41,138 nt of DNA, taken from the NCBI GenBank assembly GCA_039680785.1, contig JBDKSF010000099.1, positions 1-41,138 of the forward strand, written 5' to 3'. The DNA comes from Candidatus Cloacimonas sp. (GTDB taxonomy: Bacteria; Cloacimonadota; Cloacimonadia; Cloacimonadales; Cloacimonadaceae). Positions within the stretch are counted from its first letter, which is position 1. Every line of letters starts with the position of its first letter. Below are positions 31,910-34,296 of this stretch, piece after piece. The position numbers and the translations under genes were made by a program. A model generated the notes under the pieces. The model was given only the letters and a program-made list of their open reading frames with translations, had not been told where the DNA came from and did not search any database.

Positions 31910-31985
31910 TGGTGGGCCCAGAGGGACTCGAACCCCCGACCAACCGGTTATGAGCCGGTAGCTCTACCAACTGAGCTATAGGCCC
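31910..31985 (-). tRNA. tRNA with CAU anticodon (Met or lysidine-type Ile)
   Basis: The 76-nt cloverleaf begins GGGCCTA and ends TGGGCCC-A-CCA, with CCA encoded. The D arm reads GCTCAGTTGGTAGAGC, the anticodon loop CTCATAA, and the T loop TTCGAGT. The acceptor pairs fully with one G-U. The CAU anticodon could be elongator Met or Ile read with lysidine; the missing G-C-rich initiator features argue against fMet. TilS recognition elements cannot be judged here. Confidence 0.93.
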
Positions 31986-32124
31986 CCAGAAATTTCATAA
32001 TAAAGCAAAAAATCTTTATGCCCCAATTTCGTCAAGGCAAAAAAAACGGGAGCGGTTTATATTTTGTCTTGACAGATGGAAAGATTGCCAAAAAATGTCT
32101 CTTAATCGTAAGGAAGAATATTAT

Positions 32125-32244
32125 ATGTGTTATCAAAACAAGAAGTTATATGAATTAAACATAAATGAAGAAATAGTCGTCGAAAAGCATTTGCCCCTCG
32201 CAAATGCTTTTTTTTTACCTGGGAGGAAGGGTGTTTTTAGATGA
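32125..32244 (+). CDS. Possible 39-codon leader ORF overlapping the nadC start
   Basis: ATG at 32125 follows AAGGAAG by a reasonable distance and reads MCYQNKKLYELNINEEIVVE..., stopping TGA at 32244. It crosses the intrinsic terminator and the nadC ribosome-binding site and ends 11 nt past the nadC GTG. It has no recognised family. It could be a regulatory leader peptide or chance. Confidence 0.3.
   Translation: MCYQNKKLYELNINEEIVVEKHLPLANAFFLPGRKGVFR
32183..32216 (+). terminator. Strong intrinsic terminator immediately upstream of nadC
   Basis: AAAAGCATTTGC (32183-32194) and GCAAATGCTTTT (32200-32211) are perfect 12-bp complements with a 5-nt loop. Nine T in a row (32208-32216) follow. It lies only 14 nt before the nadC GTG, so it can act as an attenuator of nadC or end a short upstream transcript. 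Confidence 0.88.
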
Positions 32245-33052
32245 AATAATCAGAAAAAGCTTGGAAGAAGATATAGGGACGGGCGATATAACTACCCGCT
32301 ATCTGGATTTGGAACCTCAAACCTCTCTTGCCTATATTATTGCTAAAGCACCGGGAATTTTAGCCGGCGTGGATATAGCAAGACAAGTTTTCAAGATGGT
32401 GGATGCCGATCTTAAAATTACTTTATACAGTAAAGACGGAGATAAAGTAGTTCCTCAGGAAGAAATTATGCGCTTGGAAGGCAGACCTTCTTCCATTTTA
32501 CAAGGAGAAAGAACTGCCCTAAATTTTATGCAGCGACTTTCCGGAATTGCCACTAAAACGGCTGAATATGTTGCTCTTCTGGAAGGAACGGAAGTGAAAC
32601 TTTTAGATACCCGAAAAACAACTCCCCTGCTGCGTTCTCTGGAAAAATATGCCGTTCGGGTTGGGGGTGGCTATAATCATCGTTTTGGGTTATTTGATAT
32701 GGTATTGATCAAAGAAAATCATATTCGCGCTTGCGGATCGATAACGGAATCGGTAAAGCGCATTCGGAAACATAACATCAGCTACAAAATTGAAGTGGAA
32801 GTTACTAATATGAAAGAAGTTGATGAAGCGGCAAAAATTGGCGTGGATAGAGTTATGCTGGATAATATGACTCCCGAACAAATAAGAAAAGCCGTCAAAA
32901 AATATAAAGAAGTATTGGAATTTGAGGTCTCGGGCGGAATTACGGAAGATAATATCCGTACTTATGCCGAAACGGGAGTTCAGTTTATTTCTTCCGGAGC
33001 CCTCACACATTCATATAAATCACTGGATCTAAGTATGTTATTTAAGGAGTAA
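32231..33052 (+). CDS. nadC: Nicotinate-nucleotide pyrophosphorylase (quinolinate phosphoribosyltransferase)
   Basis: NadC converts quinolinate and PRPP to nicotinate mononucleotide in NAD synthesis. Starting at GTG 32231 (behind GGGAGGAAGG) it has 273 residues: EEDIGTGDITT, ERTALNFMQRLSGIATKT, DTRKTTPLLRSLEKYAVR, GGGYNHRFGL and VLIKENHI are the active-site blocks. An ATG nine codons earlier falls inside the terminator stem and is not the likely start. No nadA or nadB is seen nearby. The next gene follows after 3 nt. Confidence 0.95.
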   Translation: MFLDEIIRKSLEEDIGTGDITTRYLDLEPQTSLAYIIAKAPGILAGVDIARQVFKMVDADLKITLYSKDGDKVVPQEEIMRLEGRPSSILQGERTALNFMQRLSGIATKTAEYVALLEGTEVKLLDTRKTTPLLRSLEKYAVRVGGGYNHRFGLFDMVLIKENHIRACGSITESVKRIRKHNISYKIEVEVTNMKEVDEAAKIGVDRVMLDNMTPEQIRKAVKKYKEVLEFEVSGGITEDNIRTYAETGVQFISSGALTHSYKSLDLSMLFKE

Positions 33053-33055
33053 GCA

Positions 33056-33787
33056 ATGGAAGAAGAATTAAGAACACTTGCCAAAATGCAAATCCTGGAC
33101 GATCAAATCGGACGCTATCGGGTTTTGCAAAAAGAACTGCCCAAAGAATTAAACGAAATTATAGAAAGCGTAGAACAAGCAACTGCCAACCTGCTTGCCA
33201 TCGAAACCGAACATGCCGAACTAAACAAAAAACAGCGCGCCTTGGAATTGGATATTAAACAGATGCAGGAACAAAGCAAGAAATATGCCGCCCAACTTTC
33301 GGAAATTAAAAATAACAAGGAATATAAGGCATTAAACAGCGAAATCACCTATATTAAAGAGAAAATTTCCAATATTGAATCTACCCTGCTGGAATTGATG
33401 GAAAAGGAAAACGAAATTAAAGAAAAAGTAGCCGCTGCCAAAAATGAATTGCAAAAAGCCGAAACTCGCCAAAAAGAAAAAGAAAGCGATTTGAGAGAAC
33501 AAATTGCCTCCCTGGAAACCAAAATTGAAGAAATTCGCAATCAAAGAAATGAACTGGCACGCACTTTACCCGTTCCAATCGTTAAACATTACGGAAATAT
33601 GATAAAACATAAAAACAATCAGGCAGTCGCTTATAATCGTGATGGCTCTTGCGGTGCCTGCGGTTTTGTGATTCGTCAACAAATGCGCATTGAATTGCAA
33701 TTGCGAAAAAAGATTATCTATTGCGAAAATTGCGGACGCATTTTGATGAATCATTTTGAAGAAAACGCTGACAATGTATCCATCTAA
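33056..33787 (+). CDS. Coiled-coil protein with C4 zinc ribbon (PF02591-type)
   Basis: The 243-residue protein is a long coiled coil (about 5-170, rich in E/K/L heptads). It ends in a zinc ribbon with Cys199, Cys202, Cys223 and Cys226 (GSCGACGF ... YCENCGR). This matches the widespread bacterial C4-type zinc-ribbon family whose structure resembles a hook of antiparallel helices; a nucleic-acid role has been suggested for relatives. It follows nadC by 3 nt and precedes rnpB. Confidence 0.88.
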   Translation: MEEELRTLAKMQILDDQIGRYRVLQKELPKELNEIIESVEQATANLLAIETEHAELNKKQRALELDIKQMQEQSKKYAAQLSEIKNNKEYKALNSEITYIKEKISNIESTLLELMEKENEIKEKVAAAKNELQKAETRQKEKESDLREQIASLETKIEEIRNQRNELARTLPVPIVKHYGNMIKHKNNQAVAYNRDGSCGACGFVIRQQMRIELQLRKKIIYCENCGRILMNHFEENADNVSI

Positions 33788-33836: not shown

Positions 33837-33843
33837 TTAAAAA

Positions 33844-34199
33844 GGGAAGATTAGATGTTCGCTGCACATTCAATGCAGAGGAAAGTCCGGACACCAAAGG
33901 GCAGAATACTTCCTAACGGGAAGCTGTAGTAATACAGAGATAGCTCCACAGAAAATAAACCGCCCTTCAGTTTTTCTGAATCGGCAAGGGTGAAATGGCG
34001 GTGTAAGAGACCACCGGTATCTTTGGTGACAAAGATAGCCAGGAATGCCTTATTCGGTGCAATGCCAAATAGAAAAGCTATGATGTTGCCCGCATCGCTT
34101 TCGGGTAGGCAGCTTAAGGTGTTTTGTAAAAAACATCTCAGATGGATGAACATCACTTTCGGGAAACCGAAAGCACAGAATCCGGCTTATAATCTTCCC
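33844..34199 (+). ncRNA. rnpB: RNase P RNA, bacterial type A-like
   Basis: The conserved 5' core GAGGAAAGTCCGGACACC at about 33878-33895 and the 3' core ACAGAATCCGGCTTA at about 34175-34189 are diagnostic. The terminal helix P1 is formed by GGGAAGATTA (33844-33853) with TAATCTTCCC (34190-34199), giving 356 nt. The RNA is the catalytic part of RNase P, which removes tRNA 5' leaders. Open frames overlapping it on either strand are not genes. Confidence 0.95.
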
Positions 34200-34296
34200 C
34201 AATTGTTTCTAATGGTGACCTGGAAATAATGTAACAATCAGATTTTGGGAAGGAGGGTTGACAAGATGTCACTCTTCCGTAAACATAGAGGTATGA

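Follow-up and report, generated by a model that had tools for sequence, protein, structure and literature searches.

A putative translation-coupled attenuator ahead of the nadC–zinc-ribbon–rnpB operon in Cloacimonadota

The leader that precedes nadC in Candidatus Cloacimonas sp. joins a promoter, a short open reading frame (ORF) and an intrinsic terminator, and comparison across genomes shows that these three parts and their order are conserved, even where the gene that follows them has been exchanged. We consider it probable, judging from the sequences, that the element is a translation-coupled attenuator of the pyrBI kind, heading an operon of nadC, a zinc-ribbon gene and, in most of the order, the RNase P RNA gene rnpB. 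Ribosome-controlled attenuation as the class of mechanism is well supported by these comparisons, from which we also infer that the ribosome would cause the read-through and be coupled to the next gene, and where transcription would start.

Leader anatomy in the window

The window, by which we mean the whole stretch of 41,138 nucleotides that was analysed, carries the following features of the leader and its operon:

32069..32097, + strand: putative operon promoter, with a −35 element TTGACA (32069–32074), a 17-nt spacer and a weak −10 element AAAATG (32092–32097); scan score 10/12
32110..32116, + strand: Shine-Dalgarno (SD) sequence AAGGAAG of the leader ORF, assigned by sequence; AGAGG/AAGGA is kept at the same place in the family alignment
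32125..32244, + strand: leader ORF of 39 codons plus stop, MCYQNKKLYELNINEEIVVEKHLPLANAFFLPGRKGVFR; it crosses the stem and overlaps the nadC start by 14 nt
32182..32216, + strand: intrinsic terminator and putative attenuator, stem GAAAAGCATTTGC-CCCTC-GCAAATGCTTTTT followed by nine T
32231..33052, + strand: nadC, quinolinate phosphoribosyltransferase, GTG start (PF01729, PF02749); first operon gene here
33056..33787, + strand: CT398-like coiled-coil and C4 zinc-ribbon protein (PF24481, PF02591); second operon gene here
33843..34204, + strand: rnpB, class A RNase P RNA (RF00010, 286 bits), 56 nt behind the zinc-ribbon gene

The original prediction had described a strong intrinsic terminator 14 nt before the nadC start and a 39-codon ORF, with its own AAGGAAG site, that crosses the stem and overlaps that start, and both descriptions hold: the stem (32182–32212) has 13 pairs when its A-U ends are counted, the loop is CCCTC, the nine T occupy 32208–32216, and 14 nt separate the end of the terminator from the GTG at 32231. 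In a test of 23 gene starts of the window, that of nadC alone had an intrinsic terminator within 180 nt upstream. The fold of the leader as a whole is unexceptional (z −1.0), which is to be expected of one short hairpin in an otherwise unstructured, A-rich leader, and no Pfam family matched the peptide of the leader ORF.

Since a tRNA gene (31913–31985) and another gene upstream both lie on the opposite strand, nadC needs a promoter of its own in the intervening ~240 nt, where the TTGACA at 32069 is the sole well-placed conserved candidate; between 32217 and 32231 no promoter motif is present. Transcription would start at about 32104, which leaves only about 20 nt of leader before the ORF. The tRNA gene, on the minus strand and divergent to the leader, has a CAT anticodon loop and is found likewise in three other genomes of the genus. 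One genome of the genus has an Acido-Lenti-1 RNA (RF01687, 49.5 bits) ahead of nadC (L005:1080–1125).

Conservation of the leader and the exchange of its first gene

The upstream regions of nadC from the nine genomes of the genus and from 36 others in the window's family (hereafter f1) align from TTGACA through to the nadC start. The arrangement of promoter, ORF and terminator is kept, in one copy each, in 45/45 nadC-bearing genomes of the family, and the leader thereby passed the test of conservation in relatives that the original prediction had set beforehand for its own refutation. A TTGAC stands 30–75 nt ahead of the ORF start in all 45 family leaders and in 33/38 leaders that have the zinc-ribbon gene as their first gene. 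The hairpin AAGCATTTGC-loop-GCARATGCTTTTTTT is maintained with compensatory changes: 93.8% of the pair cells are standard, five pairs have changed on both sides, and double-changed cells number 16, as compared to 3.2 in shuffles. A generic terminator was rejected as an explanation, the hairpin pattern AGCATTTGC...GCARATGC occurring once per genus genome and always at this place.

With a covariance model of the leader (R1), a single match was obtained in each nadC-bearing f1 genome, always before nadC, and a search of the phylum returned extra matches, away from nadC, in f10, another family of the same order; the order-level matches L185, L190 and L196 are unrelated terminators. In f10, nadC is located elsewhere, and TTGACA, SD, short ORF and a AAGCATTTACC hairpin stand directly before the gene for the CT398-like zinc-ribbon protein, with rnpB behind it. 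The description of the element as an attenuator of nadC is therefore adequate locally but not for f10; the original prediction had overlooked both this occurrence without nadC and the conserved TTGACA promoter at 32069. As the leader precedes the zinc-ribbon gene where nadC is elsewhere, its constant client is the zinc-ribbon gene, mostly together with rnpB, and the attenuator would belong to a zinc-ribbon(-rnpB) operon to which nadC was added as first gene in part of the Cloacimonadota. Such a leader is better named after the gene kept through evolution than after the one that happens to adjoin it.

In most genomes outside f1, the rnpB model starts 7–25 nt behind the stop of the zinc-ribbon gene, and in most of them no TTGAC promoter pattern precedes rnpB. 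Given this adjacency in most Cloacimonadota, the RNase P RNA is there probably cut out of an mRNA. Within f1, rnpB is adjacent in two genera, g1 (9–397 nt behind the zinc-ribbon gene) and g4, and in the remaining f1 genera examined no rnpB was found beside the operon; in the window, a TTGAATTATATTTT stretch may be rnpB's own promoter. In two loci (L201 and L206), the gap between the zinc-ribbon gene and rnpB is widened to about 370–400 nt and consists partly of short repeats such as GCAGTTCTCCCTTAC and CTCTCACTGC.

The leader ORF, the predicted mechanism and its alternatives

What is conserved in the leader ORF, as far as sequences can tell, is that it reaches the stem, and hardly the peptide that it encodes. 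Its frame is open from the ATG to the stem in 40/42 distinct family leaders, where shuffling predicts 9 (P about 3e-25) and each of the other two frames is open in 2/42; in the two exceptional leaders the stop lies just before the stem, and a ribosome terminating there would still cover the 5' arm. Phylum-wide, with start codons outside f1 assigned by SD heuristics, ORFs whose start was picked by the SD alone reach the stem in 81/90 leaders (25 expected). The frame in which the stem is read varies between species (e.g., KHLPLANAFF, EAFAAAQMLFF and SICDKQMLFL), which argues that it is the openness that is kept and not the product. Among substitutions in the first codons, those at third positions are only weakly in excess (108/106/158). 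The conserved leader peptide that the original prediction had suggested looking for in relatives was thus not borne out: an N-terminus MCxRxK recurs in many f1 leaders, yet without a strong synonymous signal. An enrichment of out-of-frame stops, striking at first, was accounted for by codon content.

The ends of the ORFs track the stem as well. In 17/33 zinc-ribbon-first leaders the stop falls at the stem base (−15 to +2 nt); in 10/42 f1 leaders the ORF overlaps nadC by the 4 nt of an ATGA, and 20 overlap it further. Overlaps of the ATGA type are also seen with the zinc-ribbon gene in other leaders, and individual leader ORFs end in TTATGA across the zinc-ribbon start (L189) or in TAGATG right against it (L188). 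Beyond the stem and into nadC, openness is at chance level (31 observed and 32 expected among the 42 f1 leaders), which makes a hand-over to the next gene less certain than the reaching of the stem.

In the mechanism that we propose, RNA polymerase would start at the promoter and transcribe the SD, the leader ORF and then the hairpin. Were no ribosome close behind, the hairpin would close and transcription would stop at the U-run; a ribosome translating the leader would instead reach or cover the 5' arm, block the hairpin and let the polymerase read through. It would then finish at the start codon of the following gene or across it, in many cases with an ATGA overlap, and might aid initiation at the first gene, so that translating up to the stem would be what counts and the peptide sequence would matter little. 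Of the control by termination that had been envisaged originally, by ribosome position, a protein or a ligand, ribosome position has gained in weight, given that promoter, ORF and terminator are conserved together and that the ORF end tracks the stem; NAD as the ligand has not.

The closest known likeness is Escherichia coli pyrBI, where an intrinsic terminator sits within a short ORF leading up to the first gene and is suppressed by a close ribosome (PMC4824070). As there, an intrinsic terminator lies here between promoter and first structural gene, and a leader ORF, whose translation is predicted, reaches by comparison into or through it. The leader sequences are, however, unrelated, the operon comprises nadC, zinc-ribbon gene and rnpB instead of pyrimidine genes, and the ORF here frequently extends over the start codon of the following gene. 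Repression of an E. coli terminator is almost complete when it stands within reach of a translating ribosome or a few nucleotides behind it; this repression fades beyond about 27 nt and vanishes without translation (PMC4824070); the ORF stops at the stem base fall within the zone of repression. This distance rule between ribosome stop and hairpin, established with an engineered tR2 reporter, fits the leader geometry, here a naturally occurring and conserved one. Within the first 100 bp of an E. coli coding region, where the ribosome has not caught up, terminators normally work unless the polymerase pauses (PMC4824070). This counts against the proposed mechanism, and by the same analogy termination would probably be the default and read-through the regulated state.

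Attenuators of the trp/his/phe type likewise have a short leader ORF and a terminator before the structural genes, but separate their terminators by over 20 bp from the leader peptide gene, while the terminator of pyrBI lies inside it (PMC4824070). The leader described here has its terminator inside or against the ORF and lacks both a competing antiterminator and a regulatory codon run: RNAalifold on 39 leaders gives the terminator as the only consensus structure, at odds with the conserved antiterminator that the original prediction had considered, and the leader peptides contain no run of codons for an end-product amino acid. It is from the pyrBI geometry, this terminator-only fold, the missing codon run and the failure to match a riboswitch that we infer suppression of the terminator by a ribosome on the ORF.

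Among the alternatives, the foremost, if an unlikely one, is a trans-acting repressor, protein or small RNA, that would bind the leader start (AUAUGUGUNNNCGAA) and block leader translation so that the terminator forms, attenuation itself being real. The start region of f1 leaders indeed keeps ATATGTGTNNNCGAA (also ATGTGTNNNCGAA, codons 2–4, window 32125–32136), with codon 2 TGT in 37/45 leaders and codon 4 CGA, a rare arginine codon, in 23/45 (CAA in the window, where CGA is used 2.1 times per 1000 codons), and this nucleotide-level conservation goes beyond the need of a conserved peptide. There is, however, no candidate protein, the motif is missing from most zinc-ribbon-first leaders, which often begin with GTG AAG/AGG, and it may merely favour initiation. 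An ATAGA motif is found, mostly 10 nt before the stem and in all three ORF frames, in 23/42 leaders (3 expected; ATAGT in the window). Both the start motif and ATAGA resemble signals that act at the nucleotide level, perhaps in initiation or in pausing.

An improbable reading is that of a fixed, unregulated partial terminator that keeps read-through into the operon low, the ORF being incidental. It agrees with the terminator being the most conserved part and with the 18/41 KSB1/Latescibacterota loci (see below) where the hairpin may be the terminator of an upstream tRNA gene; the open-frame statistics and the ORF ends that track the stem base are unexpected for an incidental ORF, and the window's own upstream tRNA gene is encoded on the opposite strand.

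The pyrBI leader has a U-rich tract with UTP-sensitive polymerase pausing, whereas the Cloacimonadota leader is without a U-rich pause tract, A-rich and T-poor (45% A, 23% T), its A content of 0.447 comparing to 0.286 in codons 2–18 at other gene starts and 0.311 over all genes of the window. The A-richness might reflect ATP-sensitive pausing, or no more than a leader free of structure. That a scarce nucleotide, here ATP, slows the polymerase until the ribosome catches up and read-through follows would suit the pyrBI anatomy and this composition, but a high A content also leaves the leader open to ribosomes by keeping it free of structure, neither the zinc-ribbon gene nor rnpB belongs to a nucleotide pathway, and any pause sites are hypothetical; we rate such sensing as improbable too, behind the preceding readings.

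A trp/his-type amino-acid attenuator or a riboswitch that binds NAD or one of its precursors, to which the leader ORF and terminator and the codons for Cys and the rare ones for Arg early in many leaders might point, is largely refuted and very improbable, since the consensus fold holds the terminator only, no single codon forms a run, the ORF overlaps the terminator rather than ending >20 bp before it, no Rfam riboswitch matches and the leader before the ORF is so short.

As to NAD itself, the leader shares with the NAD-I (nadA) and NAD-II riboswitches its position before an NAD gene here, but it offers no room for an aptamer and goes evolutionarily with the zinc-ribbon gene, not with NAD genes. 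Neither of their covariance models matched, be it at the gathering threshold over the window or at E<=10 over 31990–32300, where Rfam returned only sub-threshold matches at that E-value; this confirms the earlier remark that no known NAD riboswitch is recognisable. In all nine genomes of the genus, nadA is located elsewhere and has no such leader; no f1 genome has an R1 match at nadA, and in the four genomes read no terminator lies upstream of it. We therefore rejected an NAD regulon, and sensing of NAD by the leader is unsupported, as is the niacin/NAD logic of the original prediction, the leader occurring also without nadC. At nadC of other phyla, no R1 match was below E 0.3 in 77 loci, and a terminator was present in only 8 of them.

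Loci in KSB1 and Latescibacterota

Zinc-ribbon loci were further sampled in genomes from the phyla of one KSB1 and one Latescibacterota genome, plus two other genomes. In this set, a terminator lies within 180 nt upstream of the zinc-ribbon gene in 42/44 loci (3/44 when shuffled), with a TGCA[CT] core (AAGTGCACC...GGTGCACTT) in 41 of the 42, and rnpB was found in 41/44 loci. ORFs with SD-only start choice reach the stem in 37/42 loci (16 expected), although many of the starts are TTG with weak SDs, and we hold the leader-ORF reading with less confidence here than for Cloacimonadota. Clear examples are L288 (MKMISIKWERYILPDLSYDCDMGL), whose ORF stops against the stem, and L343 (MKREPVESQETRVDDRDPFL), whose SD is strong. 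As 18/41 loci scanned have a gene for tRNA-Met or tRNA-Val close upstream, the hairpin may there also end a tRNA transcript.

A tentative idea, possible but in our judgement doubtful, is that of a widespread, phylum-crossing attenuator in Cloacimonadota, KSB1 and Latescibacterota, by which RNase P RNA synthesis, via the co-transcribed zinc-ribbon gene, would depend on leader-ORF translation or on read-through from a tRNA gene upstream, tying the capacity for tRNA maturation to the state of translation, with nadC having joined secondarily. To our knowledge, pyrBI-like attenuation, with a ribosome covering a terminator in the leader ORF, is known from few operons; the putative version described here is kept across a whole phylum, mostly uncultivated, and, more loosely, in two more, and its operon usually ends in rnpB. 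If the idea is right, it would connect translation, in a way that can be tested, with the supply of a universal ribozyme, and would suggest that the CT398-like zinc-ribbon family, so far poorly characterised, takes part in the RNase P RNA circuit. We found no published account of such a leader in the open literature, which is no proof of novelty.

The nearly fixed TGCAC hairpin core of L285–L344 often stands right behind a tRNA-Met or tRNA-Val(CAC) gene, and tRNA genes adjoin the zinc-ribbon operon in other phyla, too.
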